Below, piece by piece: positions 1 through 27,447 of a stretch of DNA of 29,930 nucleotides. Location of the stretch: IMG/VR virus record IMGVR_UViG_3300025151_007460, positions 1 through 29,930 of that record; one strand, written 5' to 3'. A program made the translations under genes and the position numbers. The stretch is from a virus. The notes under the pieces were generated by a model. That model did no database searches. It had not been told where the DNA came from and worked only from the letters and a program-made list of their open reading frames with translations. Position 1 is the stretch's first letter. The number at the start of each line of letters is the position of its first letter.

Positions 1-49
1 GACGTTAGGGCCTAGGTATGCTAAAATAGATGACACAAAGGACAAAATT

Positions 50-10966: not shown

Positions 10967-12681
10967 TGTGCGGCATATATGGCATCACGGACAATAATCC
11001 TAAATTTATAGAAGACTATTTGGAGATATGCAAACACAGAGGACCAGACGGTTCGAATCTGTACACTTCAGACATTGTTACCTTAGGACACAATCTTTTG
11101 AGTATAATGGCAGATCCTGGAAAATCACAACAACCATGGATCACTCCAAAAGGTAATCGTCTTGTTTACAATGGAGAAATTTTCAACTATGAAGAACTAC
11201 TGAACAAATACAAAAAGTTTAACAACACTACAGGGTGTGACACCGAACTACTTGCATGGGGCCTCGATACACATGGTTTAGATTTTATAGATGAGATCGA
11301 TTCCATGCATGGCTTTGCGTATTATGATTTGCACAATAACACAATAACGCTCAGCAGGGATCATGCTGGCATCAAACCGTTGTATTATGCAGAGATAGAC
11401 AAAGGTCTTGTGTTTGCTTCGGAGATAAAAGGAATGTTAGATATAGTTCCAAATGCAAGAATCCTTGACAACCTGGCATGTAGCATGATGACCAAAGCAG
11501 GAACAAATCCATTAAGAAACACGCTGTTCACAAATATAAAAAAAGTTTTACCAGGCGAAACGTTGGTTTACGATATTTCAAAAAGAACTATAAATTTCGT
11601 GAAGAGGATATACATCAAACCAAACGCCAATAATGATTATGATAAGAATGAGTTGAAAGAAATGTTTGCCAACGCTGTGAGACAATGCAGTATCGGAAGA
11701 AGAAAGATTGGGGTTTTCCTTAGCGGAGGAATAGACTCCACGATTGTTGCATATGAACTACAACAGATAAAAAATGATGTAAACACTTTTACGAATAGAA
11801 TTACCCCACACACAGTTGCTGAAGAGGATTACAACAGTGATTCAAAAATGGCACAAAAATTTGCTACAGAGCGAGGTTTCAAGCACCATGACGTTGTGAT
11901 ATCACCCAAGGAGTACCTGTCAGCATGGGAAGACAGCATATGGTACCAAGAGCAACCAATTTACAATCCAAGTAATGCGATGTACTGCTACACAAACAAA
12001 TACCTAGCGGAAAATGATATTGTAGTTACTTTGGCAGGAGACATGGGAGACGAACTGTTTGGCGGCTATCCAAAATATTTAGAACTTTTTAGGAAAACAA
12101 AAAAGCCAACATCATGGAGAGAACTTTTAAGCCTATGGATGCAGAGAATCAAGAAAGGCAGTTATGCCTTGACCGAAGTTTTAGAGGATGACACAGTTTT
12201 GTTAGACGAATTAGAAAAATGTTATGGAGATGAATTATGGAATCCTAAAGATCCAACAGCATCATACATGGCTCTGGATTGCGTTGCACAGGTCCCTGAC
12301 TGCTTTCTTGCACGAAACGATAACTATGGCATGGCATACAGCATGGAGGGAAGATTTCCTCTAGCATCAAAAAAATTCATGCAGTATTGTCTAGACATTA
12401 AATCAAAACACAAGTTTGCAAGAGGAAGTACAAAATCCCTAGTGAAAGAATCATACAAAGACTTTTTGCCAAATTATATACTCAATAAACCAAAAACAGG
12501 GTGGACAGTTCCGATTGGTTATTGGATCATGGACGGGGTCGACAAGGATTTAAGTAAGGTGTACGCAAACACAATCGGAGCAGATAGATTAAAACTAGTG
12601 GGCAGATCGCAAAAGATAGGCAAAAGACTAATACCCGAATGGCAAATAAAAAGTTGGAAGGAAAAATATAAAATTAAATAA
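10966..12681 (+). CDS. asnB: glutamine-dependent asparagine synthetase-type amidotransferase
   Basis: This 571-aa protein is full length for AsnB (E. coli AsnB about 554 aa). It has the N-terminal glutaminase nucleophile Cys2 (MCGIYGI), the glutamine-pocket motifs RGPDG (25-29) and YNGEIFN (69-74), and then the synthetase domain with the pyrophosphate loop SGGIDS (253-258) and GDMGDELFGGY (about 359). It would hydrolyse glutamine and amidate an ATP-activated carboxylate. Homologues in polysaccharide loci (for example WbpS-type proteins) amidate uronic acid residues. With transferases on both sides, that role is more likely here than asparagine supply; this is inference. It overlaps paralogue C by 1 nt. 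Confidence 0.95.
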   Translation: MCGIYGITDNNPKFIEDYLEICKHRGPDGSNLYTSDIVTLGHNLLSIMADPGKSQQPWITPKGNRLVYNGEIFNYEELLNKYKKFNNTTGCDTELLAWGLDTHGLDFIDEIDSMHGFAYYDLHNNTITLSRDHAGIKPLYYAEIDKGLVFASEIKGMLDIVPNARILDNLACSMMTKAGTNPLRNTLFTNIKKVLPGETLVYDISKRTINFVKRIYIKPNANNDYDKNELKEMFANAVRQCSIGRRKIGVFLSGGIDSTIVAYELQQIKNDVNTFTNRITPHTVAEEDYNSDSKMAQKFATERGFKHHDVVISPKEYLSAWEDSIWYQEQPIYNPSNAMYCYTNKYLAENDIVVTLAGDMGDELFGGYPKYLELFRKTKKPTSWRELLSLWMQRIKKGSYALTEVLEDDTVLLDELEKCYGDELWNPKDPTASYMALDCVAQVPDCFLARNDNYGMAYSMEGRFPLASKKFMQYCLDIKSKHKFARGSTKSLVKESYKDFLPNYILNKPKTGWTVPIGYWIMDGVDKDLSKVYANTIGADRLKLVGRSQKIGKRLIPEWQIKSWKEKYKIK

Positions 12682-12685
12682 TGTC

Positions 12686-13561
12686 ATGCCAACCCTAGCA
12701 GTAGTAACAACTTTCCCGCCAAACAGATGGAGTACCTATGCCAAAAGGATGATTGATAGTCATGTGCAATTTTGGCCTGAGGATGTGACTCTGTATGCTT
12801 ACTATGAAGGCGCCAAGCCTGACTACAATCATGCAAAAGTAAAATTTATTAACACCGAAGAAGCGAATCCTGAACTAATGAAGTTCAAACAGCGACATAA
12901 AGATGATCCAGTTGCTAACGGTGAAACTCAAGAAATACCAGGCGGAGTGAGACGAGATCCTAATGCCGGTAATAATGACAAAGGAAAAGGATCTTACCTG
13001 TGGGACTCTATAAGATTTGCACACAAAACATTTGCAGTTGACCATGCACTGAAAAATTTACAAACAGATTATGTGCTATGGTTAGACGCCGACACGTACA
13101 CTTTCAGACCGATATCGACTGAATTTGTCACAGGATTGTTGCCTTCAGACAAACTTGTAAACTTTCTCGGTAGAGGAGACAAATATCCTGAATGTGGTTG
13201 GGTCTGTTACAACAGGAATCATAAAAAACGTAAAGAGTTTATGGAATACTGGACAAACTTGTACATACAGGACACAATATTCAAAGAACTAGAATGGCAT
13301 GACAGTTATGTATTTTGGCAATGCGTTAAAAGAATTGCACCAAACGATGGAGTTGATATTGGTAAAGGTGCTGGTGCAAAAGGACATCATGTCTTTGTAA
13401 ACAGTGTGCTTGGATCATATGTTGATCATCTAAAAGGCAAAAGAAAAATAAAGGGTAAAAGCAGTGCGAGTGATCTAAGGATGGCACGTGATGAGGATTA
13501 TTGGAAGAACGTCGAATCATACGATCCATTCGGTGGCTTGAAATTTGATCCAAAAAAATAG
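12686..13561 (+). CDS. GT-A-like glycosyltransferase, paralogue 1
   Basis: This is a 291-aa protein with a GT-A-like layout: an N-terminal strand TLAVVTTFPPNRW, a pre-catalytic helix SIRFAHKTFAVDHAL, and the metal-binding motif YVLWLDADTYTF at about 130-141 (Asp-Ala-Asp). A C-terminal VNSVLGSYVDHLKG block is shared with the 290-aa protein at 14734-15606, which also has 'D..RF..K.FA', LDAD and 'S.LG.Y.DH.KG'. The two are clear paralogues separated by the ColD-like gene. There is a 4-nt gap after asnB. Donor unknown. Confidence 0.82.
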   Translation: MPTLAVVTTFPPNRWSTYAKRMIDSHVQFWPEDVTLYAYYEGAKPDYNHAKVKFINTEEANPELMKFKQRHKDDPVANGETQEIPGGVRRDPNAGNNDKGKGSYLWDSIRFAHKTFAVDHALKNLQTDYVLWLDADTYTFRPISTEFVTGLLPSDKLVNFLGRGDKYPECGWVCYNRNHKKRKEFMEYWTNLYIQDTIFKELEWHDSYVFWQCVKRIAPNDGVDIGKGAGAKGHHVFVNSVLGSYVDHLKGKRKIKGKSSASDLRMARDEDYWKNVESYDPFGGLKFDPKK

Positions 13562-13579
13562 TAAGCATAATTACTTGAA

Positions 13580-14737
13580 ATGAAATATCCATTAGCATTT
13601 TCAACTTGGGGTGTTGAAGAAACAAACGCAATACAAAAAGTTGTCGACTCCGACATGTACACCATGGGTAAACATGTCAAACAATTTGAAAATGAATTTG
13701 CTGAATTGTTCAAAAGTCCAAACGCGGTAATGGTGAATTCTGGTTCGTCGGCAAACCTGTTAATGTTAAGTTTGTTGAAATGGAAATACAAACTGAAAGG
13801 TGACATCATAGCGCCTGTTGTAGGATGGGCCACAACATATTTTCCAATAGCACAGAACGGCTTTACAATAAATTTTGTAGATGTTGATCCAGACACATGG
13901 AACATCGATGTACAAAAGATCGAACAATCAATCACATCTAACACCTGTGCAATTATGCCTGTAAACTTGTTAGGCAACAGTTGTGACTATGATGCAATAC
14001 GAAGTATTTGTGATAAGCACGGTTTGATGTTGATCGAAGACAACTGTGAATCGATGGGAGCAAAGTTTAATGGACAGTACACGGGTACATTTGGCCTTGC
14101 AGGATCATTCAGTTTCTTCTTCAGTCACCACATACAGACAATGGAAGGTGGAATGGTATTGTGTAAAAACAAGGACGATGCAGATTATCTAAGAAGTATG
14201 AGGGCACATGGCTGGGTGAGAGACCTGCCAGACAATTCGTCTCTTTACAAAAAAACTGGAAATGCATTCAATGACAATTTTATATTTGCTACTCCCGGAT
14301 ACAACTTAAGACCATTAGAAATGAGTGGTGCTATTGGATCAGTACAACTGGGCAAATGGGATAGCATCATGCAAACGAGACTTGAAAACGCAAAACACTT
14401 TGTAGAACTTTTTAGCGACAAGCCATGGTGTAGGATACAAAAGGAATTAGGTGAGAGTAGTTGGTTTACATTTGGAATGGTCCTTGACGGAGCACTAAAA
14501 GGACGTAGGACAGATGTAATACAAGCATTGGACAAAGCAGGAATACAGAACAGACCTTTAGCATCGAGGAACTTCTTGAACCAACCTGTGATGCCCAACC
14601 TTGACCACACAGTAATAGGATCAATGGAGGCCGCAGATGACATACATGACAACGGTTTCTTTGTTGGCAATGGAAGTGTCGCACTAAAAGAAGAAATAAG
14701 TCTCCTATATGAAATAATATCAGGAATGGTAAAATGA
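13580..14737 (+). CDS. DegT-fold sugar 3-dehydratase, ColD-like (active-site Lys replaced by His)
   Basis: This 385-aa protein belongs to the DegT/DnrJ/EryC1/StrS PLP-dependent family: GSSANLLMLSLL (about 55-66), a cofactor-ring strand LIEDNCESMGAKF (about 151-163) and GSFSFFFSHHIQTMEGG (175-191). In aminotransferases of the family the residue at position 183 is the Schiff-base lysine; here it is His. That substitution marks the dehydratases ColD and RfbH/E1, which use PMP to remove the C-3 hydroxyl from a 4-keto-6-deoxy sugar nucleotide. The length fits ColD (about 388 aa) better than E1 (about 437 aa), and no extra C-terminal iron-sulfur Cys cluster is evident. It probably makes a 3-deoxy sugar precursor. 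It overlaps the next gene by 4 nt. Confidence 0.88.
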   Translation: MKYPLAFSTWGVEETNAIQKVVDSDMYTMGKHVKQFENEFAELFKSPNAVMVNSGSSANLLMLSLLKWKYKLKGDIIAPVVGWATTYFPIAQNGFTINFVDVDPDTWNIDVQKIEQSITSNTCAIMPVNLLGNSCDYDAIRSICDKHGLMLIEDNCESMGAKFNGQYTGTFGLAGSFSFFFSHHIQTMEGGMVLCKNKDDADYLRSMRAHGWVRDLPDNSSLYKKTGNAFNDNFIFATPGYNLRPLEMSGAIGSVQLGKWDSIMQTRLENAKHFVELFSDKPWCRIQKELGESSWFTFGMVLDGALKGRRTDVIQALDKAGIQNRPLASRNFLNQPVMPNLDHTVIGSMEAADDIHDNGFFVGNGSVALKEEISLLYEIISGMVK

Positions 14738-15606
14738 AAACATTAACTATTGCTACCACGTGGGGGACCAAGTATTGGCCTAATCCAGTTCGGCCTTGTG
14801 TCGAAAGCACGATTGCGAATTGGCCTGCTCATGCAAAAATATTATTGTACCCGGATGACATGTCACAAAAGATAGAATCAGATAGAGTAGAATACATAGA
14901 CTTGTGCCAAGCACAACCAAATTTGCAGGCATTCATAGACAGGCATAAAGACAATCCTGAACTAAATCCACGGATTAGACAGAACAAAGAAGAACAAGCA
15001 GGTTTTGACAAAGACACATCAATATATGTGTATGACGCAGTGCGTTTCAGTTACAAAGTTTTTGCCTGCATAGATGCATGGCAAAGGACCAAACCCGACA
15101 TGCTCTGGTTCTTAGATGCTGACCTGTTGACATTTGAAAAGATCCCAATGTCTTGGTTAGAACACATCATACCTGACTCTTCTTTCACTTCGTACCTCGG
15201 CAGGCCAAAGAAAGGATTTTCTGAAACTGGTTACTATGCATTCAACACTGCTCACAAGTACGCAGGAGAATTTTTCAACAGATGGGAACAATACTACACA
15301 GAAGATTTATTCTTCAACATACAAAAAGGATTCCTTAACCATTTCCCAATCGCTGGCTACACCGATTCATTCACGTTTGATGCAGTGAGAGTTGAAATGG
15401 AGCAGGCTGGTAAAATTAAAAATGAAGATTTGAATGATGGGAGATGGGCAGGAGAAAGAAAAGCACGACACCCATTTATAAACTCTGAGCTCGGCCAGTA
15501 CATGGATCACATGAAAGGCTACACAAGAAAGTCAGCCATGAGCTCTAAGAAAAGGGACCTTACAACCAATCAGACCCATCCATATTGGAAGACACTAAAA
15601 GACTAG
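14734..15606 (+). CDS. GT-A-like glycosyltransferase, paralogue 2
   Basis: This is a 290-aa paralogue of the 12686-13561 product. Shared features include an N-terminal TLTIATTWG strand, a 'D.VRFSYKVFA' helix, the metal-binding DxD in MLWFLDADLLTF (about 123-134), YTDSFTFD, and a C-terminal INSELGQYMDHMKG. No signal peptide or membrane helix is seen. The ATG overlaps the ColD-like stop by 4 nt, so the deoxy-sugar enzyme and this transferase are likely made together. It could transfer the sugar that enzyme helps to produce; that pairing is inferred from position only. Confidence 0.82.
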   Translation: MKTLTIATTWGTKYWPNPVRPCVESTIANWPAHAKILLYPDDMSQKIESDRVEYIDLCQAQPNLQAFIDRHKDNPELNPRIRQNKEEQAGFDKDTSIYVYDAVRFSYKVFACIDAWQRTKPDMLWFLDADLLTFEKIPMSWLEHIIPDSSFTSYLGRPKKGFSETGYYAFNTAHKYAGEFFNRWEQYYTEDLFFNIQKGFLNHFPIAGYTDSFTFDAVRVEMEQAGKIKNEDLNDGRWAGERKARHPFINSELGQYMDHMKGYTRKSAMSSKKRDLTTNQTHPYWKTLKD

Positions 15607-15616
15607 CATTGTAAAT

Positions 15617-16555
15617 ATGGTTATGAGATCATTAATCACCGGTTGCCAAGGCTTCATTGGAAAAAACCTAGCACAGCATTTGAAAAAACAAGGGCATCAT
15701 GTCACAGGCATAGACAAGAAACTTAAAGTAGGTGATCCTGTTTTTGTAGACGAGTTCGTTGGACATGACATGGAATCGAGGATCACAATCGAAAATGATT
15801 TCGATAGAGTTTACCATCTATCAGCAGATGTGCCAAACTCAAAAAATGTTGGGTCTGCACAACTAGGAACGGGTAGAAGCAATCCAATACAGTCAATACA
15901 AGCAATGGACTTTGCGGCAAAAAATAAATCTCATTTGATCTACGCCTCAAGTGCTATGATATACAACACAGATCATCAAGGACATAATGGTCCAGATCTA
16001 AAAGAAGACGAACACATATGGCCAGCACAACCTGCCGGCAACATATACGGAATGGAAAAACTGTACAACATGCAATTGGCACAAGAGTACGCTAAGAGTT
16101 ATGGAATAAAAGTCTCACTGCCTATATTTCATGCCATGTATGGACCACACTGTGATGTGTTAGAAAATTCAAAAGTGGTGGCCGCCACATGTTTAAAAAT
16201 TTTACAGGCAGACGACCCAGGTGAAATAGAGATATGGGGCGATGGAACACAAATCAGATCATTCTGTTACATAGACGATCTCATGGTGGGATTGGACAAA
16301 TTGATTGAGAACGATGTTCAGGTTCCAATTAACATGGGATCCGACGAAGCGATAACAATGACACAACTAGCAGATATGTTGATCAAGATATCGGGAAAGA
16401 AAATAAAAAAGAATTATCTACCATCTGGTCCAGCAGGATGTATGAGAAGGAACTCGGACAACACAAAAATTATGAAACTGACGGGGTGGAAGCCTAACTT
16501 CCCTTTACAGGAGGGTCTTGAAAGGACGTATGAATACGTCAAGACAGTTTTATAA
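15617..16555 (+). CDS. extended SDR, GDP-mannose 3,5-epimerase-like
   Basis: This 312-aa nucleotide-sugar SDR has the Rossmann motif TGCQGFIG (8-15), Ser111-Ser112 and the catalytic Tyr144-x3-Lys148 (YGMEK). Its second half carries blocks typical of GDP-mannose 3,5-epimerases: EIWGDGTQIRSFCYIDD, a 'NMGSDE' strand and RRNSDNTKIMKLTGWKP near the C-terminus. GDP-fucose or GDP-colitose synthase-type chemistry (epimerase/reductase) is the main alternative. Together with the ColD-like enzyme it suggests a GDP-linked deoxyhexose. The start could also be Met3 at 15623; neither has a clear Shine-Dalgarno. It overlaps the next gene by 1 nt. Confidence 0.9.
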   Translation: MVMRSLITGCQGFIGKNLAQHLKKQGHHVTGIDKKLKVGDPVFVDEFVGHDMESRITIENDFDRVYHLSADVPNSKNVGSAQLGTGRSNPIQSIQAMDFAAKNKSHLIYASSAMIYNTDHQGHNGPDLKEDEHIWPAQPAGNIYGMEKLYNMQLAQEYAKSYGIKVSLPIFHAMYGPHCDVLENSKVVAATCLKILQADDPGEIEIWGDGTQIRSFCYIDDLMVGLDKLIENDVQVPINMGSDEAITMTQLADMLIKISGKKIKKNYLPSGPAGCMRRNSDNTKIMKLTGWKPNFPLQEGLERTYEYVKTVL

Positions 16556-17427
16556 TGAGGGTAGAAGTTTGGCCAGGTTTTGGCCCTCTTAATTCAAAAG
16601 AAATATTCGAAAAATTTATAAATTCCTTGCATAACTCGGGCGATGAGGTGCACATCAACAGAGAAGCAAACGGCGATGTTGCAGTGATATGGAGTGTCCT
16701 GTGGCAAGGACGTATGCGTCAAAACAAACAAGTGTGGGATCGTTTCCGTAATTCTAACAAGCCAGTGGTGGTGATAGAAGTAGGCGGTATCAAAAGGAAT
16801 GAAACGTGGAAAATTGGGATAAACGGTGTTAACAGAGAGGCAGACTTTGCCAATGAGAATGTTGACGAGAACCGTTGGAAAAAGTTTGGAATCAATTTGA
16901 GGCCATGGGGACAAACAGGAGATGACATAATTGTGTGTGGGCAACACACTGACAGTCATCAATGGAGGAATAATCCACCAATGTCAAAATGGTTTGATCA
17001 GCAGATCACAGGAATAAGAAAACACACAGACAGGCCAATCGTTATTCGTCCACACCCCAGAAACAGTGTTTTCATAGACACCAACAAATATCAAAACGTT
17101 AAAATAGTAAGACCCATAAGAGATCAGAAGACATATGATGATACAGACCTTGCAGAACGATTGAAATCAGCATGGGCGGTGGTGAGTCATTCCAGCAATC
17201 CGGCCATGACAGCAGTGTTCTCTGGCATACCTGTGTATGTGTCGGAATCAAGTCTAAGTTATGATGTTGGTAACACATCGTTCGCAAACATAAACAATCC
17301 TGCGATGCCTGAAAGACAAACATGGGCCAATCGGTTAGCATACACAGAATGGTGGATAGACGAGATAGAACAAGGCATACCTTGGAATAGGATCAAAAAA
17401 CAATTGAAGGAAAAGTATTTGAAATGA
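16555..17427 (+). CDS. GT-B-like surface-glycan transferase, paralogue D
   Basis: This is the fourth member (290 aa) of the window's GT-B-like family. It has the full motif HTDRPIVIRPHPRNSV (about 156-171), then AWAVVSHSSNPAMTAVFSGIPVYVSESS (about 205-232) and a C-terminal RLAYTEWWIDEIEQG matching the same region in A, B and C. The N-terminal third (VEVWPGFGPLNSKEIFEKFINSL) looks like the first Rossmann half. It overlaps the SDR gene by 1 nt and the next gene by 4 nt. Its sugar specificity cannot be read; family placement is by motif. Confidence 0.77.
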   Translation: MRVEVWPGFGPLNSKEIFEKFINSLHNSGDEVHINREANGDVAVIWSVLWQGRMRQNKQVWDRFRNSNKPVVVIEVGGIKRNETWKIGINGVNREADFANENVDENRWKKFGINLRPWGQTGDDIIVCGQHTDSHQWRNNPPMSKWFDQQITGIRKHTDRPIVIRPHPRNSVFIDTNKYQNVKIVRPIRDQKTYDDTDLAERLKSAWAVVSHSSNPAMTAVFSGIPVYVSESSLSYDVGNTSFANINNPAMPERQTWANRLAYTEWWIDEIEQGIPWNRIKKQLKEKYLK

Positions 17428-18146
17428 TCGAACCCATCGAGTGGAAACCATATCAAGGAGAAAAAGTCTGTGTCAATACAATAATCAGAGGCGGTAAAAA
17501 AATTCAAGAATGGCAATTTTACGAAGATCGAGTAAAGGCAGTTCCTAGAGGCAATGCGTATTGTATAGGTAACGGTCCGTCACGTAAAGGGTTTGATCTT
17601 TCACTCCTTAGAGACACAGGACAGTTGTATGGTTGTAATGCACTGTACAGAGACATCCTACCAGATTTTATTTTTTCCGTTGATGCTAAGATGACTGCAC
17701 AGATGATAAAAGACGAGGTAGGATTAAAGACAATACACTATGCGCCTTCGTTAGAAGTAAACAGAGACAAGACAAAAATGTTACATTTGATCCCAAACAA
17801 TCCGCATTGGATATCGGGCAACCAAGCATTTTGGACGGCAGGTGTACATGGACATAGGAACATATATCTTATAGGTTACGATTTCAGAGAATACGGTGCA
17901 GGAGAACTTAACAACATATATCAAGACACACCTAATTATGGTGAACGTAATGCTGATACCATATTTGACGGATGGCTCAAACAATTCAGACACATGATCA
18001 AACTAAGACCTTACATTAATTTCACAGTTGTCCATGATAGTCCACCAGAGTACCTTCACCATTTACAGACAGGCACTGACCTAGGCAACACTAAAGTTAT
18101 AAGTTATAAAGAGTTGGAGACGGTGTTAGCATCTAGCAAGGCCTAG
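17424..18146 (+). CDS. GNGPS-motif protein, sialyltransferase/DUF115-like
   Basis: This 240-aa protein has AYCIGNGPSRKGFDLSLL (about 45-62), then YGCNALYRD (69-77) and DFIFSVDAKM (81-90). That 'GNGPS..., CN..., D' order is the nucleotide-binding pattern seen in GT42-type sialyltransferases and in DUF115/MptE-like proteins of flagellin- and glycan-modification loci. A later strand NIYLIGYDF also fits GT42-type proteins. It is therefore likely to use a CMP- or other nucleotide-sugar, but family and substrate are not settled by eye. It is the last gene of the sugar block; its end overlaps the convergent SprT-like gene by 21 nt. Confidence 0.7.
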   Translation: MIEPIEWKPYQGEKVCVNTIIRGGKKIQEWQFYEDRVKAVPRGNAYCIGNGPSRKGFDLSLLRDTGQLYGCNALYRDILPDFIFSVDAKMTAQMIKDEVGLKTIHYAPSLEVNRDKTKMLHLIPNNPHWISGNQAFWTAGVHGHRNIYLIGYDFREYGAGELNNIYQDTPNYGERNADTIFDGWLKQFRHMIKLRPYINFTVVHDSPPEYLHHLQTGTDLGNTKVISYKELETVLASSKA

Positions 18147-18602
18147 TCCAGCACTTGCAAATTTTGTCCGCCAAGCAAAAAAGTTTTTATTATGGTTCGA
18201 ATAAGGATCTTTCAGCCAAGTCATTTGGTAAAGGTGCACCATTTCGTGTGCTAATGTTTCTATGAAGTCTTTCCATTTTGGAAACTTACAGTGTAACTCT
18301 ATAAAGTAATCAACATCAATATGATACGGAATTACTCTTTGATCAAATTTACCTCTTGGTGTTTTTCTATTGTCCCAATTAGCGACACACCTACCCCAGT
18401 CTTTATGAAGTTTCCTTATGTGCAACGGAACCATTGGTAATCTACTGTTGAACAAAGCACGATTTATGTATCTGAACCATTGATATGCCTGTTGCTCGGT
18501 TGGTCTGAATCCTTTCTTATTCTTGTATCTGGTCTCAGTATTTTCCAACCTAATTTTCAATAGTTTTTTAACGTTTACCTTTTTACTTTTAGTTTTTTTC
18601 AT
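18126..18602 (-). CDS. SprT-like zinc metalloprotease
   Basis: This is a 158-aa basic protein with the zinc-binding motif LAHEMVHLYQ (HExxH) and a downstream SNHNKNFFAW, typical of the SprT/Spartan-like family whose members cleave DNA-protein crosslinks in cells. The N-terminus is a Lys-rich segment (KKTKSKKVNVKK). The ATG at 18602 is preferred; a TTG 18 nt upstream is in frame. No Cys4 zinc ribbon is seen at the C-terminus. It is transcribed against its neighbours on the minus strand and is the only such gene between the sugar and UvsW modules. SprT-like genes are common in T4-like marine phages; the substrate in infection is unknown. Confidence 0.88.
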   Translation of the reverse strand: MKKTKSKKVNVKKLLKIRLENTETRYKNKKGFRPTEQQAYQWFRYINRALFNSRLPMVPLHIRKLHKDWGRCVANWDNRKTPRGKFDQRVIPYHIDVDYFIELHCKFPKWKDFIETLAHEMVHLYQMTWLKDPYSNHNKNFFAWRTKFASAGLGLARC

Positions 18603-18604
18603 GG

Positions 18605-18632
18605 TTGACAGTTTTACCAATTATGCTATAAT
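18605..18632 (+). promoter_or_regulatory. consensus sigma70-type promoter upstream of the HARP-like/uvsW operon
   Basis: A perfect TTGACA (18605-18610) and a perfect TATAAT (18627-18632) are separated by 16 nt on the plus strand. Transcription would start near 18639, about 18 nt ahead of the ATG at 18657. Consensus host-type promoters are used by T4-like phages for immediate-early genes, so this operon may be expressed at once by the host polymerase. The promoter sits between the divergent SprT-like gene and this operon and overlaps the 5' end of the former. Confidence 0.85.
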
Positions 18633-18656
18633 ATACTAATAATTACCTAAAATATC

Positions 18657-20009
18657 ATGGATAATATGCACACAGATTTGCCAAAAACAATTAACGAAGC
18701 CCTTAAAATACTAGCATATAATGATTATTTTTGGTCAGATGACACATTCCCCCAAAAGATGCAAATAAAACCCCACCCAAAAGATTTTGCCACAGTGAAA
18801 TCATTGGCAGAAGCACAATATCCATGGACAGAAAAACAGGCGAGGTTGGCTCTTGTAATTCTGAAAAGATATCTTACAAAGTTCCAAACACACGGCATGG
18901 ATATAAAAAATTTGCTCGACCATCCACAATACGAGGATGAATTTAGGGTAATAAATTTTGATAAAGTGATTGAAAAGTTCACCGACGACGAGGGCATAGA
19001 CAGAATAGAATTGAAATTTCCGTACAATAAAAAAGTTATACAACTTATTAGATGTCTGAAAGACAAGAGAGACTTCCCTGCAGGCTACAGTCAGTATGAT
19101 GGCGAAAACAAAAAATGGACATTCTTGCACACTGACGTGACAGCCTACTACCTTACACTGATTGCGGCACGTTATGATTTCAAATTTACTGACGACAGTC
19201 TATTACGTGATTATGAAACAATTAAAAAAGAGATAATAGGACACAGACAACCTACTGCACAACTTATTGGAAACGAGATTGTGTTGAACGACGCACCTGA
19301 ATCTTTGCAAGAATATTGGAATGAGAACTTGAAAGACAAACCTGCCCTGAGTCAAGTCGACGCTCTCAAAAATTTAAGTATACCCACACAAGGTATCCAT
19401 GTTCCTGCACAAACAAGTATAGGTTACAAAGTGGCCCATAACAAATATCATAAACTGTGGATCGATTCAAAAACTTACTCTAAAAATGAAGTTGTCAAAG
19501 GACTTATAGAATTAAATTGTTTTCCTTTAATGATGCCTGTGAGTGGTGACATACACATGGAGTCAGACGTAAAAGAATTTTGGGAATGGATGAACGCTTT
19601 CAAATCACACGGTATAGATTTATTGCAACAATGCAGTTGGGGGTTCGAAGTAAAAGAACCAATTTTCAAAAAAGATGTAGACAGGCACAATGAAAGAACC
19701 TATCTCCTAGACAACCAGAAGTCTCAAGAATTTTTCGAGAACTTATATGAATTACACCAAATGAGTAAACAATTCAAATTGATAAATCAAGATACCAAAA
19801 TAATATTTGTGCGTAACAGAATACCAAGAGCACTGATCAAAAGCAAGGTAAAACCAAAGGCCTCTTTGGTGGCACTAGGTGGTGGTTATTACGCCACTGG
19901 CACAGACAATCTTAAAAGAATGCTTGAAAATCTTCCAAAAAAGTTGTACTATAGTGATCACCAGCCGAGTAGTTGGGATTGGCATGATCATATAATAATA
20001 AAACTTTAG
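18657..20009 (+). CDS. 450-aa protein with HARP-like segment, partner gene of uvsW
   Basis: I recognise no complete family. Residues 40-75 contain a helical WTEKQARLALVILKRYL segment seen in related marine phage proteins. Residues about 117-175 (ELKFPYNKKVIQLIRCLK, then YSQYDGENKKWTFLHTD) resemble the HARP domain of SMARCAL1-type annealing helicases: a 'Y...+I..+' helix, a YD..N/R KW strand and a helix after. The C-terminal part (about 385-450) contains KASLVALGGGYYATGTDNLKRML, whose role I cannot assign. It ends 1 nt before uvsW, so the two are surely co-transcribed. A role with UvsW in fork remodelling is an inference. The start may be at 18657 or 18666; neither has a clear ribosome site. 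Confidence 0.8.
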   Translation: MDNMHTDLPKTINEALKILAYNDYFWSDDTFPQKMQIKPHPKDFATVKSLAEAQYPWTEKQARLALVILKRYLTKFQTHGMDIKNLLDHPQYEDEFRVINFDKVIEKFTDDEGIDRIELKFPYNKKVIQLIRCLKDKRDFPAGYSQYDGENKKWTFLHTDVTAYYLTLIAARYDFKFTDDSLLRDYETIKKEIIGHRQPTAQLIGNEIVLNDAPESLQEYWNENLKDKPALSQVDALKNLSIPTQGIHVPAQTSIGYKVAHNKYHKLWIDSKTYSKNEVVKGLIELNCFPLMMPVSGDIHMESDVKEFWEWMNAFKSHGIDLLQQCSWGFEVKEPIFKKDVDRHNERTYLLDNQKSQEFFENLYELHQMSKQFKLINQDTKIIFVRNRIPRALIKSKVKPKASLVALGGGYYATGTDNLKRMLENLPKKLYYSDHQPSSWDWHDHIIIKL

Positions 20010-20010
20010 A

Positions 20011-21477
20011 ATGAGCAGTTGTAAACTAGTAATAAAAGACGAAGTAAACGTTAAGTTTGAGAACCTTAGCCTCGAATGGCGTAAGAGATTATCTAATAAA
20101 TTCAAATATGAAATACCATATGCAAGGCACTTGCCCGCAGTAAAACTAGGAAGGTGGGATGGTAAGGTCAGTTTCTTTGGTCTTGGAGGCACAACATACC
20201 TCAACCTTGTGGACCAAATCCTGCCAATATTGGATGAAGGAGGAGTGTACGTCGACTTCGAAGATCGCAGGAAAAAACACAACTTTGAATTTAAGGCAGT
20301 GGACAAAGATTTCCTAGCACACATCACATGGCCCGACACACATCCATGTGCTGGACAATCAATACAGTTACGAGACTATCAGGTTGAAACAATAAACAAG
20401 TTTATTGAAAACCCACAATGCATACAGGAAATTGCCACAGGAGCAGGTAAAACTATAATCACAGCGGCATTGTGTCAGTTGGTAGAACCGTACGGCAGGA
20501 CGCTTACTATTGTTCCAAATAAAAGTTTAGTCACGCAAACAGAGGAAGACTTCTTGGCCTGTAACCTCGATGTTGGGGTGTACTACGGAGACAGGAAGGA
20601 ACTAGGAAGATACAACACAATCGCGACATGGCAGTCATTGAACGTGCTAGAGAAGAAAAGCAAGGACGAACACACAACAGATTTTTTAGAAGCGATACAA
20701 GGTATAAGCACAGTCATAATTGATGAGGTGCACATGGCAAAAGCAGATGTATTGAAAAGATTGTTGACAGGGCCATTCGCACACTGCGGCATACGTTGGG
20801 GTCTGACAGGCACTGTACCAAAAGCAGACTATGAATTTATGGGTCTGAAGTGTAGCATAGGAGAAGTGGCAAACAGAATACAAGCGAGTGAACTACAAGA
20901 CAAAGGAGTTTTAGCAAACTGTCATGTAAACGTTCTGCAAACACAGGATCATCCACAGTTCAAAACATACGGTGAGGAGTTGAAATGGTTAACCACAGAC
21001 ACTAACAGGATGTCTTGGGTGGCCAACACAATCAAAGATATAGCAACGTCTGGAAACACACTGATCCTTGTTGATAGAATATCAGCAGGAGAAATATTAG
21101 AGAAGAAAATTAAAGATGCAGTGTTTGTTTCTGGAGCAACTAAAAACACAGATAGAAAGGAACAGTATGATGAAGTATCTACTAGCCAAAATAAAGTTAT
21201 TATTGCCACATATGGAGTTGCCGCTGTTGGTATTAATATTCCTCGTATTTTCAATCTTGTTCTTATAGAACCTGGAAAGTCCTTTGTTAGGGTAATTCAG
21301 TCAATAGGACGTGGGATAAGAAAAGCCGAGGACAAAGACAGTGTGCAAATATGGGACATCACCAGCAGTTGCAAATTTGCAAAAAGACATCTCGGAGCAA
21401 GGAAAAAATTTTACAAAGAGGCAAATTATCCTTTCAATATAGAAAAAATAGATTATCCAAATAATTTCAACATGTAA
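20011..21477 (+). CDS. uvsW: UvsW, SF2 recombination/replication helicase
   Basis: This is a 488-aa superfamily-2 helicase, close to T4 UvsW in length. Motifs in order are the Q-like LRDYQ (120-124), Walker A ATGAGKT (142-148), DEVH box (238-241), GLTGT (264-268) and motif VI QSIGRGIRKA near 430. The N-terminal 100 residues match the UvsW N-terminal DNA-binding region (LGRWDGKVSFF at 46-56). In T4, UvsW unwinds R-loops and D-loops, regresses stalled forks and anneals strands, helping the switch from origin- to recombination-dependent replication. It follows the HARP-like gene by one base and precedes a small unknown gene by 8 nt. Confidence 0.96.
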   Translation: MSSCKLVIKDEVNVKFENLSLEWRKRLSNKFKYEIPYARHLPAVKLGRWDGKVSFFGLGGTTYLNLVDQILPILDEGGVYVDFEDRRKKHNFEFKAVDKDFLAHITWPDTHPCAGQSIQLRDYQVETINKFIENPQCIQEIATGAGKTIITAALCQLVEPYGRTLTIVPNKSLVTQTEEDFLACNLDVGVYYGDRKELGRYNTIATWQSLNVLEKKSKDEHTTDFLEAIQGISTVIIDEVHMAKADVLKRLLTGPFAHCGIRWGLTGTVPKADYEFMGLKCSIGEVANRIQASELQDKGVLANCHVNVLQTQDHPQFKTYGEELKWLTTDTNRMSWVANTIKDIATSGNTLILVDRISAGEILEKKIKDAVFVSGATKNTDRKEQYDEVSTSQNKVIIATYGVAAVGINIPRIFNLVLIEPGKSFVRVIQSIGRGIRKAEDKDSVQIWDITSSCKFAKRHLGARKKFYKEANYPFNIEKIDYPNNFNM

Positions 21478-21485
21478 ATAGGTTT

Positions 21486-21929
21486 ATGATTAAGAATGTA
21501 TCTTTAATGCATAAGGAACCTTTTAGGTGCAAATGTATTTGTAACGAAAAACTAATTGGTGAAACTTTTAATCAGACCTATCATTATTTTGAAATCAACG
21601 AAACTCCGGCTAAAGTTGTGCTGGAATTTGAACCATTCAAAATTAGGCCACTTTTGCGTTTGAACAAATGCTTGGTAGATACGGGTGTGGCAGAAGTAGA
21701 TGTGTATGATCACAAATACGAAATGTCTTTGAAACCAGATTGGTTAGAGATGTATACAAAAAATATTATAAAATCAAAACAAGAATATCTTAAGAGAGAA
21801 AATTTAGGTAAGGATGCTGATCCCGAGAAAGTGAAAAAATGGTTTGAAGAATATTACTTTGAACAACAAGAGAGAAAATTTTCTTACTACAAGAAAGAAC
21901 TAGACCAAATATTAAGTAATTTACAATGA
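21486..21929 (+). CDS. uncharacterised protein downstream of uvsW
   Basis: I do not recognise this 147-aa protein. The first half has beta-rich segments (KVVLEFEPFKIRPLLRLN at about 44-61) and the second half is a charged helical tail (KSKQEYLKRENLGKDADPEKVKKWFEEYYFE). Two Cys residues lie near the N-terminus (RCKCICNEK). It is 8 nt behind uvsW and overlaps the radical SAM gene by 4 nt. It may be a substrate or partner of that enzyme, or a uvsW-operon accessory protein; nothing in the sequence decides. Confidence 0.7.
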   Translation: MIKNVSLMHKEPFRCKCICNEKLIGETFNQTYHYFEINETPAKVVLEFEPFKIRPLLRLNKCLVDTGVAEVDVYDHKYEMSLKPDWLEMYTKNIIKSKQEYLKRENLGKDADPEKVKKWFEEYYFEQQERKFSYYKKELDQILSNLQ

Positions 21930-23407
21930 AATCCGCACTTTTAGTTAACCTACCAAAATACGATTTACATGCCAGTCCGGGAGCAATTGGCATTATAAGA
22001 GGAATGTGTGAATCTCAAAATTTACAAACCAACACCTTAGATTTCAACGTGTACTTGTATAACAATCTCACAAAGGACGAATGGTGGACTGTCGACAACT
22101 GGTGCAAATTTCTCGACAACAAACTTCCACAGGCCCTCGAAGATAAAATCCTCAATTTGTGGGACAGAGCAGTGCAGGAACATTTACCACGAAGTTGTGA
22201 GTTTATGATGATATCTGTATTCTCATATTGGACAATGTATATTGCACGACTTTTGATAACTCATGAATCTAAAAAACTAAGACCTTACAAACTAGTTGTT
22301 GGAGGCAATGGGTGTATAAGCACTTTCCCAGACACAAAATTATCATTTGAAGAATGGAATCGGAAAGGCAACTACATCGAACACCTATTAATAGGCGAAG
22401 CAGAAATCAAACTATCTGAATTACTCACCAACGGGCAAGTAAAATATAATGAAAACGATTTAGATTCTTTCCCTTTCCCTTCATATGGAGGAGTTAAGTT
22501 TGACGATTATTCCGAAAAAAAATTGTATATCACAGGATCTCGTGGTTGTGTTCGGAAATGTAAATTTTGTGATATAAAGAATACCTGGCCTACCTTTAGA
22601 TTTCGGACAGGACAATCGTTGGTAGATGAAATAAAAAGGCAAGTTGGAGAGTATGGAATTAAAACTTTTGAATTTACAGACAGTCTTATTAATGGCTCGG
22701 TTTCTCAGTTTAGCAAATTCAATGAAATTTTAGCAAACGAAAAACAAAAAAATAAAGACCTAGAGGATGTAACATACATCGGACAGTTCATAGTGAGGCC
22801 AAAAAAGAACATGCCAGAAAGCCATTATGAGGCAATGTACTACGCTGGTTGTAAACAATTGACAACAGGCATTGAAAGTTTTTCAAATTCCGTGCGTGAT
22901 CACATGGGTAAGAAGTTTTCAGACAATGACATAGAATACCATTTAGAACAATCTGCTTTCTGGAATATACCAAATGTCTTTTTAATGATAAGTGGATACC
23001 CAACTGAAACAGAAGAAGATCATGCAAAAAATTTAGCGGATCTTGAAAAATATTCAATGTATGCCAAATTAGGTGTGATAGAATTGATCAGTTGGTGTAC
23101 AATGCACCTCATACCAGACACACCAATTACATCACCAAAAATGATGGAGCATTTCAAATTTTACATGGAAGAGAACGCCACAGCGTTAAAGAATGTAAAC
23201 CATCATATGCCTACTGCTTCTTTCCTATGGTCAACACCAAAAAACAAAGGCAACAACCCAAAAACCAGATTGTTAAGACTCATAGACATACACAGGGTGG
23301 GAGACGAATTAGGTTACAATCAAACTAAAATGGAAGAAAATTTCAAACAATTATTAAAATTATCAGAAAATTATAAAAATAAAAAACAAAATCTACTGTA
23401 CAATTAA
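21926..23407 (+). CDS. B12-binding-type radical SAM protein
   Basis: This 493-aa protein has an N-terminal cobalamin-binding-like Rossmann region. It includes ALLVNLPKYDLHASPGAIGI (about 4-23), LVVGGNGC (about 123-130) and IEHLLIGEAEIKLSELL (151-167). The radical SAM core contains CVRKCKFC with Cys208, Cys212 and Cys215 (CxxxCxxC), binding the 4Fe-4S cluster that cleaves SAM. Downstream strands (KTFEFTDSLING, KQLTTGIES) fit the TIM-barrel. B12-dependent radical SAM enzymes often methylate unactivated carbons or modify RNA, peptides or lipids. The typical B12 signature DxHxxG is not clear, so cobalamin binding is uncertain. It overlaps the preceding gene by 4 nt. Confidence 0.88.
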   Translation: MKSALLVNLPKYDLHASPGAIGIIRGMCESQNLQTNTLDFNVYLYNNLTKDEWWTVDNWCKFLDNKLPQALEDKILNLWDRAVQEHLPRSCEFMMISVFSYWTMYIARLLITHESKKLRPYKLVVGGNGCISTFPDTKLSFEEWNRKGNYIEHLLIGEAEIKLSELLTNGQVKYNENDLDSFPFPSYGGVKFDDYSEKKLYITGSRGCVRKCKFCDIKNTWPTFRFRTGQSLVDEIKRQVGEYGIKTFEFTDSLINGSVSQFSKFNEILANEKQKNKDLEDVTYIGQFIVRPKKNMPESHYEAMYYAGCKQLTTGIESFSNSVRDHMGKKFSDNDIEYHLEQSAFWNIPNVFLMISGYPTETEEDHAKNLADLEKYSMYAKLGVIELISWCTMHLIPDTPITSPKMMEHFKFYMEENATALKNVNHHMPTASFLWSTPKNKGNNPKTRLLRLIDIHRVGDELGYNQTKMEENFKQLLKLSENYKNKKQNLLYN

Positions 23408-23431
23408 TAAGCATTTTGTTATAATAATAGG

Positions 23432-23935
23432 ATGAAGATTCTCACACTCGATAATAAATCTTACACTCTGGAAAAAGTACCGGAATGGGTGGACGATAAG
23501 TTGAGATTTGCAGTGCTTGATAATTCAGATCCAACTAATCCTGATTTCTTTTACATACCTCTAATATTCCTTGAAAGTTTCAACGCACCTGCGGCAGTGC
23601 TTGAAATCGGCGACCACAAAATTAAAATGCCATTGGATTGGAAGATGCTGATAGGTGAAGCAGGGCAATCTGAGATGCATGTGTTACCGATTACTAGTTT
23701 GAATGACAGAGGCTTCGATGCCTTTACATTCAACCCTTTATCAAGTCCTAAACCAGATTTCGTACCAATAGATGTTGTTGACATCTACACCGAAGTGAAA
23801 TGGTACTTCCCTAAAATTAAATCTGGCCAGATGTTGGCAGTGCCATTGACTGATGGTCCGTCACCAACATGTGCCTATTTTGTAAAAGACATTTCAAGAC
23901 AATGCGAACAGGTAGATTATGGCTCCGTCTGGTAG
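23432..23935 (+). CDS. conserved 167-aa phage protein
   Basis: I do not recognise the function. The protein appears beta-rich with many hydrophobic strands (FYIPLIFLESF, AAVLEIGDHKIKMPL, QMLAVPLTDG), ends in VDYGSVW, and has no membrane segment or enzyme motif that I can see. It looks like a compact soluble domain. Its 3' end overlaps the next small gene by 17 nt, and it opens a run of small genes continuing to 26219. A TATAAT lies only 6 nt ahead of the ATG. Confidence 0.72.
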   Translation: MKILTLDNKSYTLEKVPEWVDDKLRFAVLDNSDPTNPDFFYIPLIFLESFNAPAAVLEIGDHKIKMPLDWKMLIGEAGQSEMHVLPITSLNDRGFDAFTFNPLSSPKPDFVPIDVVDIYTEVKWYFPKIKSGQMLAVPLTDGPSPTCAYFVKDISRQCEQVDYGSVW

Positions 23936-24152
23936 GAGGTCTATTACGATCGAAGCACCTGTTATGATAACAAGTAATAAACTTGCAGTATGGATGGACG
24001 AGAAATGGATGCACGACTTTTTTGATTTTTTACAACTTCATAAATTCAAACTTTCAGGTTTACAACACAAACAAAGGAAATTAAAATTAACATTTGTAAC
24101 AGCAAAAGAATGCACAATGTTTGGACTAAAATATGCCGGCAGAAAAAAATAG
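23919..24152 (+). CDS. small uncharacterised protein (77 aa)
   Basis: This is a 77-aa basic protein with a helical, aromatic middle (WMDEKWMHDFFDFLQLHKFKL) and a basic C-terminus (KYAGRKK). No family is recognised. The ATG at 23919 has an AGG-type ribosome site (CAGGTAG) upstream. A perfect AGGAGG at 23934-23939 is within the coding region (Arg-Arg codons) and has no normal start codon at the right spacing. An internal ATG at 23964 is a less likely alternative. It overlaps both neighbours (17 and 20 nt). Confidence 0.6.
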   Translation: MAPSGRRSITIEAPVMITSNKLAVWMDEKWMHDFFDFLQLHKFKLSGLQHKQRKLKLTFVTAKECTMFGLKYAGRKK

Positions 24153-24585
24153 AAAATTTTTTGACTTACGTAATGGTCTTAAAGCAGTAGACTTTAGAAA
24201 CAAGGATTACTTTGATCGGATAGACGACAAAGAAAAATCATTGTATTCGCCGTACATGCTCATGAGGTACGTGTCCAGCACTTCGTCCAAAGACCAATTT
24301 TATGTTGAACACTATGTGGAGATGGTCAACGAGTGTGTAAACAAACACTGTTTCACGCTAGGCAAACACAAAAAATTGTTATGGGTACTGACCGCAATGT
24401 GTGGATCGTTGCAACAACAATTTCATCCATGGATCAAACCAATGAAGCGTGTTCCAAACAAAAGTTTGAAAAAATTGCAACAGATATACCCAACTTGGAA
24501 AGAGTCTGATTTAGAAACTTTAGATAAAGTAATCACTGACAGGGAACTGGAGGAACTGATAGAAGCACATGGCCTCAACGAATAA
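24133..24585 (+). CDS. 150-aa conserved protein, possible clamp-loader small subunit (gp62-like)
   Basis: This is a 150-aa helical protein: FFDLRNGLKAVDF, then YSPYMLMRYVSS and a HYVEMVNECVNKHCF/KHKKLLWVLTAM segment. The order 'SPYML.RY', long helices, 'W' and a basic stretch (HPWIKP..RVPNKSL) resembles gp62 of T4-like phages, the small subunit of the sliding-clamp loader, which shows little sequence identity between phages. The resemblance is by eye only and there is no gp44 in this window. The ORF overlaps the preceding gene by 20 nt and the next by 17 nt. Confidence 0.7.
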   Translation: MPAEKNRKFFDLRNGLKAVDFRNKDYFDRIDDKEKSLYSPYMLMRYVSSTSSKDQFYVEHYVEMVNECVNKHCFTLGKHKKLLWVLTAMCGSLQQQFHPWIKPMKRVPNKSLKKLQQIYPTWKESDLETLDKVITDRELEELIEAHGLNE

Positions 24586-25252
24586 ATGCACTTATTGTGG
24601 CAAGGAGTTTGCAAAAGCAAGGACGTTACAAGTTCACTTGTGCGAACCTAAACGTAGATATTTGCAACGTGATGAGAAATGGGTAGTAAACGCATTTATG
24701 GTGTTTCAAAGATTCTATCAAATACATCAACACAATTCAAAGCCAAAGACATATGACGACTTTGTGAAAAGTTCGTACTACAACGCATTTGTAAAATTTG
24801 GTCGATTCATTATGCACATCAACCCATTGTACCCAGACAAATACATAGACTATGTTTTGCAATCAAAAGTGAAATTGGATCACTGGGCAAGAGATGATCT
24901 TTATGAATTATATCTAGTAGAAGCGTTGAAGACGGAACCAGTAGAAGCCGCACTGCAAAGAAGTATAGCAACAATGATGGACTGGGCAACAGAACAAAAT
25001 GCACAATGGTCAGACTACTTCAGACTCGTAAACACAAACAGAGCAGTAGCACACATCCAACAAGGCAAAATTAGTCCGTGGTTGTTGTTAGGTTGCAACG
25101 CAGGCAAAAGGATGTTAAAATCATTTAACGACGAACAATTACAAATGATCGAAAAATTTATAAATCCAAGTTTCTGGCCAAGCAAACTAAAAAGTTATCC
25201 AGCGGATCTTATGTTGGTGCAGGACACAGCACGGGAGGCTAAAATTGTCTAA
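24569..25252 (+). CDS. conserved marine-phage protein with N-terminal zinc finger
   Basis: This 227-aa protein starts with a zinc-finger-like motif CTYCGKEFAKARTLQVHLC (Cys7, Cys10, His23, Cys25 as likely ligands), followed by CEPKRR. The helical remainder holds TYDDFVKSSYYNAFVKFGRF (about 53-72) and FINPSFWPSKLKSYPADLML near the C-terminus. I recall close relatives in T4-like cyanophages, all of unknown function; single-stranded or double-stranded DNA binding by the finger is plausible. It overlaps both neighbours, by 17 nt and 8 nt, and lies in the same run as the mini-DnaE gene. Confidence 0.82.
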   Translation: MASTNKCTYCGKEFAKARTLQVHLCEPKRRYLQRDEKWVVNAFMVFQRFYQIHQHNSKPKTYDDFVKSSYYNAFVKFGRFIMHINPLYPDKYIDYVLQSKVKLDHWARDDLYELYLVEALKTEPVEAALQRSIATMMDWATEQNAQWSDYFRLVNTNRAVAHIQQGKISPWLLLGCNAGKRMLKSFNDEQLQMIEKFINPSFWPSKLKSYPADLMLVQDTAREAKIV

Positions 25253-25478
25253 AATAGATATACAAGTTGCAGAGAGTTTAGAATTTGAACATGGTGATAT
25301 TGCAATCACAATCAAACCAGATGGAACAATAGGAAAAGTCATAATGCCCAAGATGGACGAAGAAACTAGGAACAGCGAAGGTTATAGAAAAATGCTTGAC
25401 GTAATAGAACTTTTACAACCCGGATCGAAAGAAGAATTTATAAAACATGATTCAAAAGCAAAAGGAAGTGTACACTAA
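25245..25478 (+). CDS. small conserved phage protein with TTG start
   Basis: This is a 77-aa protein: a beta-rich N-terminal half (FEHGDIAITIKPDGTIGKVIMP) then a charged helical half. The start is TTG at 25245, supported by a strong GGGAGG ribosome site at 25233-25238 with 6 nt spacing. There is no ATG nearby in this frame. It overlaps the preceding gene by 8 nt and the next by 1 nt, so its translation is tightly coupled. The function is unknown. Confidence 0.75.
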   Translation: MSKIDIQVAESLEFEHGDIAITIKPDGTIGKVIMPKMDEETRNSEGYRKMLDVIELLQPGSKEEFIKHDSKAKGSVH

Positions 25479-26068
25479 TGCCTGATGTGGATATAGATTT
25501 CTATGACAGAGACAACACATTAAAGTTGTTCAAGCACACACCTGCGTCTATGATCAAAGACGGCAAGTCAGAGAAGCACAAGACCGGAGTGTATTTCCAT
25601 GCAGTACCAGAACACCCTGTAACTGGACACGCAAGTCTTGATTACAAACAAGCAGAGGACAGAGGATACTTCAAAATAGACTGCCTTAATGTGAACATCT
25701 ACAAGGACGTGAAGTCTGAACAGGAACTGGTTGAACTGATGATACAGGAGCCAGACTGGGACATGCTGAAAGATCCAAAGATTGTTGAAAACCTTTTTCA
25801 CCTAAATGGCCATTATAACATTGTGTCCAAACTTGAACCAAAAACTATAGAACAACTTGCGGCTGTGTTGGCAATAATACGTCCTGCAAAAAGACATCTT
25901 ATGCACAAGCAATGGGTAGACATAATGAAAGAAGTATGGGTGCGTCCAACAGATGGATCTTATTTCTTCAAGAAGTCACACGCTGTTGCATACGCACAGG
26001 CGATAGTAGTGCAGATGAATTTGATGTTAAGGGATAAATATAGTTTTGATGCGACGTCAAAAAAATAA
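25478..26068 (+). CDS. miniature DnaE-like (Pol III alpha) palm protein
   Basis: This 196-aa protein follows the order of the catalytic palm of bacterial DNA polymerase III alpha (DnaE). MPDVDIDF (1-8) matches the DnaE catalytic PDxDxDF motif. KHKTGVYF (33-40) corresponds to KHAGGVVI. GYFKIDCLNV (63-72) corresponds to the KFDFLG block bearing the third catalytic Asp (here Asp68). LAIIRPAKRHLM (131-142) matches the ALFRPGPL block. FFKKSHAVAYAQ (163-174) matches FNKSHSAAYA. All three catalytic aspartate positions (Asp5, Asp7, Asp68) are kept, whereas the PHP, most of the fingers, beta-binding and OB regions are absent. Whether it has nucleotidyl transfer activity is unknown. It overlaps the previous gene by 1 nt. 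Confidence 0.8.
   Translation: MPDVDIDFYDRDNTLKLFKHTPASMIKDGKSEKHKTGVYFHAVPEHPVTGHASLDYKQAEDRGYFKIDCLNVNIYKDVKSEQELVELMIQEPDWDMLKDPKIVENLFHLNGHYNIVSKLEPKTIEQLAAVLAIIRPAKRHLMHKQWVDIMKEVWVRPTDGSYFFKKSHAVAYAQAIVVQMNLMLRDKYSFDATSKK
26033..26040 (+). promoter_or_regulatory. T4-type late promoter (GATAAATA)
   Basis: The octamer GATAAATA matches the NATAAATA form of late promoters in marine T4-like phages and differs from T4's TATAAATA in one base. It lies 8 nt before the ATG of the 56-aa gene and inside the end of the mini-DnaE gene. A chance match in AT-rich DNA is possible. Confidence 0.5.
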
Positions 26069-26219
26069 AAAGAAAATAGAAAATTACCTAAAGAAATCCA
26101 AACAAAAATCCACGTCTTCTCTTCGTTCAGAGTTTAAAAGTTATCAGCCGGATAGTCCTTTGACACAACACTATCTTACAACTGGTGCTATACTTCCTGA
26201 AAAAAAGAAGACTAGGTAG
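26049..26219 (+). CDS. small basic protein (56 aa) with a late promoter
   Basis: This 56-aa ORF fills the interval between the mini-DnaE gene and the convergent minus-strand gene. The protein has a Lys-rich N-terminus (MRRQKNKKKIENYLKKSKQK), a Ser-rich middle and an ending ILPEKKKTR. It starts within the last codons of the mini-DnaE gene (20-nt overlap) and is preceded by the late-promoter-like octamer. Its stop codon lies in the loop of the convergent terminator. The function is unknown; a small basic virion or DNA-binding protein is a guess. It may be missed by length cut-offs. Confidence 0.6.
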   Translation: MRRQKNKKKIENYLKKSKQKSTSSLRSEFKSYQPDSPLTQHYLTTGAILPEKKKTR

Positions 26220-26586: not shown

Positions 26587-26594
26587 TCTATTCC

Positions 26595-26602: not shown

Positions 26603-26618
26603 CTGTTAAATATGTACT

Positions 26619-27437: not shown

Positions 27438-27447
27438 AATATAGTTT

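Follow-up and report, generated by a model that had tools for sequence, protein, structure and literature searches.

A conserved sigma70-type element, probably a pre-late promoter, upstream of the HARP-like/uvsW operon of a phage group

In phage T4 a late promoter supplies the helicase UvsW, which unwinds the R-loops at origins and so contributes to the shut-off of origin-dependent replication (available text of PMC3016281). In a virus record of 29,930 bases (the window, a fragment by content), a UvsW-like helicase is encoded behind a HARP-like gene, and the two genes follow what look like perfect boxes for sigma70 polymerase. Are these boxes a genuine promoter, and at what stage of infection would it be used? 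The first-pass annotation had read them as a rare exact match that implied immediate-early transcription and a regulatory change for this phage group. The features are collected in Table 1.

Table 1. Features of the window, with positions on the 29,930-base record.
Feature	Position	Strand	Basis or remark
SprT-like (zinc metallopeptidase-like) gene	18126-18602	-	Pfam SprT-like 31.3 bits, cut-off 25.6
-35 element TTGACA	18605-18610	+	read from sequence; conserved form TTGAC[T/A]
Spacer block TTACCAA, invariant	18614-18620	+	TTACCA in 79/79, next A in 78/79 unique upstreams
Extended -10 TGC	18624-18626	+	TG (18624-18625) in 76/79 upstreams
-10 element TATAAT	18627-18632	+	spacer from -35 of 16 nt
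Hexamer TATTAT overlapping the -10	18628-18633	-	candidate -10 of the SprT-like gene, inferred
Predicted transcription start (A)	18639	+	7 nt past the -10, inferred from spacing
Start-region block AATTAYC, conserved	18641-18647	+	AATTA and final C in 79/79
HARP-like gene (450 aa), first of the operon	18657-20009	+	alternative start ATG at 18666
UvsW-like SF2 helicase gene	20011-21477	+	1 nt after the HARP-like gene; phrog_16 (DNA helicase), E 3.8e-76
T4-type late box TATAAATA	26595-26602	+	before the virion structural gene
Virion structural gene	26619-27437	+	phrog_14467, E 1.3e-13

TTGACA-16-TATAAT is indeed present on the plus strand at 18605-18632, and the claim of rarity held as well, since this is the sole exact match to TTGACA-N15..19-TATAAT on both strands of the window (mean of 0.07 in 100 shuffles, seven of which contained one match). 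Consensus sites as such were not enriched in a scan of positions 10,000-29,930 (66 sites vs 56.8 ± 8.0 in shuffles), nor was TTGACA in 305 intergenic upstreams of related contigs (11 vs 11.8 expected). In the same upstreams TATAAT was found 46 times vs 8.4 expected, an excess due in part to AT-rich intergenic DNA and to copies of the HARP-like/uvsW promoter. The window and 11 related contigs (37 pieces, 623,577 bases) contained five exact TTGACA-16..18-TATAAT sites, three of which are the same promoter in different phages; the expectation was 0 in five simulated sequences, a small sample, and about 1 as estimated from base composition. The tract at about -40 to -60, where an A-rich UP element would lie, is T-rich and encodes the lysine-rich start of the SprT-like protein.

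To assess conservation, we used 224 loci found by protein similarity, 211 of them with the HARP-like gene; the motif was not used for picking, although one query alignment included three motif-found members. Twenty-six loci in which the start was absent or had fewer than 75 nt upstream were dropped, and the 185 kept were reduced to 93 distinct loci by merging identical ones (lowest protein identity 64%). These 93 and three diverged loci reached by motif-found queries form a 96-locus set, from which 79 unique upstreams were taken. TTGAC-N4-TTACCA precedes the HARP-like gene in 93 of the 93 distinct relatives, and the full pattern TTGAC..TGnTATA[A/C]T is found in 88, whereas the exact TTGACA-16-TATAAT occurs in just 21. 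All 79 unique upstreams have a 16-nt spacer between a -35 of TTGACT (47), TTGACA (28), TTGACG (2) or TTGACC (2) and a -10 of TATAAT (65), TATACT (13) or TACACT (1). The window and nearly all of these relatives have the near-consensus boxes, the spacing within 16-18 nt and the TGn of a sigma70 -35/TGn/-10 promoter. The first-pass annotation overstated the exact match, as the exact form is not the conserved state and TTGACT is commoner; the element itself is conserved. It had also passed over the invariant spacer and start region and the conserved SprT-like gene on the other side of the gap. The exactness of the boxes is weak evidence, and their conservation is strong evidence.

In 234 random pairs, the first 900 nt of the HARP-like gene had a pairwise identity of 0.73 for the protein and 0.43 at fourfold-degenerate sites, while the identities were 1.000 for the -35, 0.992 for the spacer block and 0.952 for the -10. 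Boxes that are near-identical when fourfold sites have diverged to this extent point to strong selection on the element. Judging from these alignments, the sigma boxes are not the only part under selection, which extends to the spacer and the start region; the near-invariance of TTACCAA and of the start region makes a role of the element beyond sigma binding probable. Diverged homologues (38-49% protein identity) also carry the element; these loci were found by the motif, so they are not independent evidence and illustrate its reach only. In diverged relatives the AATTAYC block is kept but lies closer to the -10, and the spacing between the two conserved blocks differs among lineages while the spacer block is unchanged.

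The element is essentially tied to one place. The collected loci contain 219 motif copies (overlaps included), with 212 before the canonical start of the HARP-like gene, six before diverged homologues and one elsewhere; 18 of 22 records hold exactly one copy, and the other four none in exact form. A motif scan of viral contigs gave at least 119 stretches. A second copy of TTGAC-N4-TTACCA..TATGCTATTAT, with one mismatch, was found before a 98-aa gene in one contig (L372:4377, genome G008), and this gene has a signal-peptide-like start. A phage-wide promoter class was rejected: a scan of the 623,577 bases with at most two mismatches gave one further site outside this promoter, and a scan of viral contigs with the TTACCAG form gave eight stretches, seven of them this promoter and one the second site. 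Among the matches listed, a motif copy in locus L204 stands in an unrelated context and was taken as chance.

Three other readings of the conserved stretch were also rejected. A leader peptide could start at the ATG at 18601, which opens a 12-codon frame through the element, but this ATG is absent in a number of relatives, and most variable columns are at first or second codon positions. Mimicry of a host promoter was considered, but a scan of a genome collection gave two contigs, each binned in a MAG and carrying the phage gene downstream, and the one genome with the motif among 289 of the Pelagibacter MAG's class was that MAG itself. Diverged relatives do not preserve both TGGT..ACCA and ATTAT..ATAAT, the arms of a possible inverted-repeat operator. 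No Rfam family reached its gathering score in the window.

Conservation of this degree was compared with that of other upstream regions, using 18 gene families from the window and the 11 contigs with at least four intergenic upstreams each. By its best 28-nt stretch the upstream of the HARP-like gene ranked fourth (0.97), behind the late control region, counted from both its genes (0.99 and 0.99), and another upstream (0.98). Extreme conservation is therefore not special to the promoter, as the divergent region with the late box (26587-26618) is at least as conserved. This region is a 32-nt gap with TATAAATA between a 124-aa gene on the minus strand and the virion structural gene on the plus strand, and its best stretch of 0.99 was obtained among 9 and 10 related upstreams. 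In a plain ungapped comparison to the window, the 60 nt before the HARP-like gene scored 0.66 and several other genes scored higher (up to 0.89); the low score is explained by small insertions close to the start, which shift the sequences out of register.

The spacer was compared with those of hand-picked sigma70-like promoters of the same phages. Spacers are freer in two of them, one before a 142-aa gene (L344, L365 and L376), whose proteins share 85-92% identity, and the other before a 76-aa lipoprotein-like gene (L348, L359 and L372 at 15052), with 44-70% protein identity. In a third promoter, before a gene of about 360 aa, the spacer is frozen too, in closer relatives (88-99% protein identity); two further families (229 aa and 362 aa) had inconsistent boxes and were left unused. 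Such freezing of the spacer is unusual in a plain promoter, though not unique; in other respects the HARP-like/uvsW promoter is of an ordinary type. The promoter before the ~360-aa gene, TTGACGTTAGGGCCTAGGTATG with a weak -10, was read in five contigs (L364, L366, L370, L374 and L375) and is also present in L190 and L357; the near-palindromic TTAGGGCCTA within it looks operator-like, and GGCCCT is repeated upstream.

The timing of the promoter was approached through the T4-type late box. ATAAATA was seen 56 times in sense intergenic upstreams vs 2.2 expected, where the expectation assumes a uniform spread and is crude for AT-rich gaps. It was absent within 110 nt upstream of the HARP-like gene (0 of 95 distinct upstreams) and within 120 nt upstream of uvsW (0 of 115). 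The operon is most likely pre-late, since late boxes are missing before both genes yet enriched elsewhere. Late sigma families (phrog_12791 and phrog_234) were found in 0 of 21 partial records, a search in which no positive control gave a signal, so the late class is defined here by its box. A Sigma70_r2-type phage sigma factor was found in 0 of 20 partial records, and gp55 of phage CBB had no tblastn match at E up to 1 in the collected loci, which are fragments. In the leaders of some late-box genes the word AGGCA recurs in several related contigs (TTTAGGCA, ATAGGCACA, CAAGGCA and ACAGGCAAA). By eye, no TGCTT of the MotA box (as given in the available part of PMC2988021) is present at -30, where TTGAC is found instead in 79 of 79 upstreams. 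The immediate-early timing proposed earlier may apply to the operon; at the level of sequence it looks the same as middle timing, because a middle factor could act at TTACCAA.

The UvsW-like helicase has the Pfam domains ResIII and Helicase_C above cut-off and is closest to those of giant phages (Sinorhizobium phage Phosso, 53% identity; PA5oct-like, 51%; Atu_ph07, 51%; CBB, 48%). The label HARP-like, taken from the first pass, is plausible for the first gene, and 4 of the 13 members of its family match HARP with E values of 0.05 or less (best 0.0082), but the window protein is under the Pfam gathering cut-off (PF07443; 14.3 vs 25 bits). This protein had no match at 1e-5 in 50,697 phage records, but uncultivated viral contigs yielded 141 relatives, and 80 of these were retained. 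Its profile gave no PDB sequence match at E up to 1, and its structure model (mean pLDDT 83, pTM 0.57) no Foldseek match with an E value of 0.001 or below. Residues ~235-450 of the model align, among the best rows listed, with SF2 RecA-like helicase domains (top Z 9.3), and the comparison with T4 UvsW (1rif) gave a Z of 7.5 (rmsd 3.7, 142 residues); scores of this size lie at the limit of those returned for models that lack a clear match. No Walker A motif is visible in the sequence. From the model, the protein may be a degenerate relative of UvsW/XPB-like helicases, and as a guess it could be a catalytically dead, helicase-like partner of UvsW.

Behind uvsW the operon continues to a DNA-polymerase-like gene (25478-26068). 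In the window a 147-aa gene and a radical-SAM gene (21486-23407) lie between uvsW and a 167-aa gene. These two genes were found in only two distinct loci, vs 104 for the 167-aa gene, and in the relatives read the 167-aa gene comes immediately after uvsW. On both grounds the pair was probably inserted into the operon. The group's contigs were binned in MAGs from which we guess that the phages are marine.

The best explanation, to which we assign a probability of roughly 0.6, is that the element is a genuine sigma70-type pre-late promoter of the HARP-like/uvsW operon, set in a control region shared by divergent genes. Host sigma70 polymerase would bind TTGAC, TGn and TATAAT and start near 18639, before late transcription. 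The resulting mRNA, with a short leader, would carry the HARP-like gene, uvsW and the following genes up to the DNA-polymerase-like gene. The promoter lies within a 54-nt gap between the SprT-like gene, whose ATG (18602) is 2 nt left of the -35, and the HARP-like gene. As the gene to the left is read in the opposite direction, rightward transcription from upstream would cross it antisense, so the operon probably relies on this promoter. The compact gap would have a second duty besides the operon, as an overlapping leftward start for the SprT-like gene, as a binding site for a regulator that covers TTACCAA and the start region, or as both, and we propose that this double duty keeps the spacer frozen.

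The strongest competing reading, which falls a little short of even odds, is that the near-symmetric -10 (TATAATA on one strand, TATTAT on the other) drives both the operon and the SprT-like gene, and that the two start regions account for the conserved blocks. Of the 93 distinct loci, 92 have, within 8 nt to the left of TTGAC, a CAT, which is the SprT start codon read on the opposite strand, and the SprT-like gene was found in all five diverged loci read (45-54% identity). The minus-strand hexamer among the 79 upstreams is TATTAT in 64, TAGTAT in 11 and another in 4, so that a near-symmetric -10 lies between divergent genes, the arrangement expected of bidirectional bacterial promoters (PMC10268837 and PMC12825309, available text). 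In the portion of PMC10268837 at hand, the start sites of such promoters are usually 18 bp apart, with -7T and -11A paired; this reciprocity argues little here, because it comes free with any TAnnnT hexamer. Unlike the published bidirectional promoters, the gap has no recognisable -35 on the minus strand, and the leftward start would be a predicted one. In addition, the SprT start lies ~20 nt further off in three diverged loci (L339, L240 and L251), yet the spacer is the same. Because the SprT start and the distance between the conserved blocks shift in diverged relatives while the spacer block stays, a bound protein is slightly favoured over a purely bidirectional reading.

Such a protein could also change the timing. 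A phage or host regulator sitting over TTACCAA may repress or activate the promoter, and uvsW may then be late or conditional despite its perfect boxes. We consider this possible and on the unlikely side. The near-invariance of the spacer block against the divergence at fourfold sites agrees with an operator, as do the freer spacers before the 142-aa and 76-aa genes and the one-mismatch repeat of the pattern that G008 carries in front of another gene. Against this, the TTACCAA block is no clear palindrome, and the distance between the conserved blocks varies by lineage. Furthermore, the two comparison promoters with freer spacers comprise three copies each, and the spacer of the third, before the ~360-aa gene, is frozen as well.

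A transcription-primed replication origin, in which RNA from the promoter would form an R-loop, is very improbable. Its attractions are the single exact copy in most records, the AT-rich sequence, the adjoining uvsW, and the precedent of T4 oriF and oriG, which use middle promoters and whose R-loops UvsW unwinds (PMC3016281, as available); however, GC and AT skew track the coding strand, with no flip at the promoter in the window and in the profiled pieces of G001 and G002. A chance consensus match in an AT-rich intergenic stretch, with which the unenriched counts of consensus sites and TTGACA would agree, has next to no probability in view of 93 of 93 relatives that keep the element while their fourfold sites diverge.

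The sigma70-type promoter preferred here resembles the early promoters of T4 in its near-consensus -35, TGn and -10 for host sigma70 polymerase; the T4 promoters are described as strong combinations of UP, -35, TGn and -10 (PMC2988021, in the part available), with a -35 region like GTTTAC (PMC1524935, likewise). It differs from them in its TTGAC[T/A], in its nearly invariant 16-nt spacer and in that it occurs at essentially a single site, linked to one gene. The uvsW gene of T4 is under late control, unlike the pre-late control predicted for this group. In the Rak2-like jumbo phage CBB, according to the accessible portion of PMC5259590, the range of ORFs 258-329, which includes uvsW (CBB_281), has a second, RpoD-like promoter class, and structural genes are reported to have a late class, ATAAATA. 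The non-late, sigma70-like promoters reported for the CBB region of DNA-synthesis genes in which uvsW lies resemble the pre-late promoter predicted here. The TGAAACG word of the second CBB class is visible before the CBB ssb gene. CBB uvsW comes after ssb, RecA-like and DnaQ-like genes, whereas in our group a promoter of its own precedes the HARP-like/uvsW pair; the 250 nt upstream of CBB uvsW contain no site of 10/12 or better and one of 9/12.

In Agrobacterium phage Atu_ph07, uvsW is closely preceded by TTGACT-18-TATAAT; the record of this phage annotates the uvsW start ~130 nt later than the reading frame used here. As in our group, sigma70-type boxes and an extended -10 stand before uvsW and adjoin an oppositely read gene, but the spacer has another length and sequence, and no HARP-like gene lies between. 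The regulatory change that the first-pass annotation suggested for this phage group is therefore not peculiar to it, as CBB (PMC5259590, accessible portion) and Atu_ph07 also point to a non-late uvsW.

A more far-reaching and rather doubtful interpretation is that of a dedicated pre-late switch, in place of the late control seen in T4, for the fork-remodelling helicase UvsW: an essentially single-copy, frozen element of ~45 bp that would combine a sigma70 promoter, a regulator site in the spacer and a divergent protease-like gene, and would set up repair before replication peaks. The compact control region with its frozen spacer offers a clean bait for a DNA-binding regulator. If UvsW is made pre-late in these related giant phages, their replication must start or switch in a different way.
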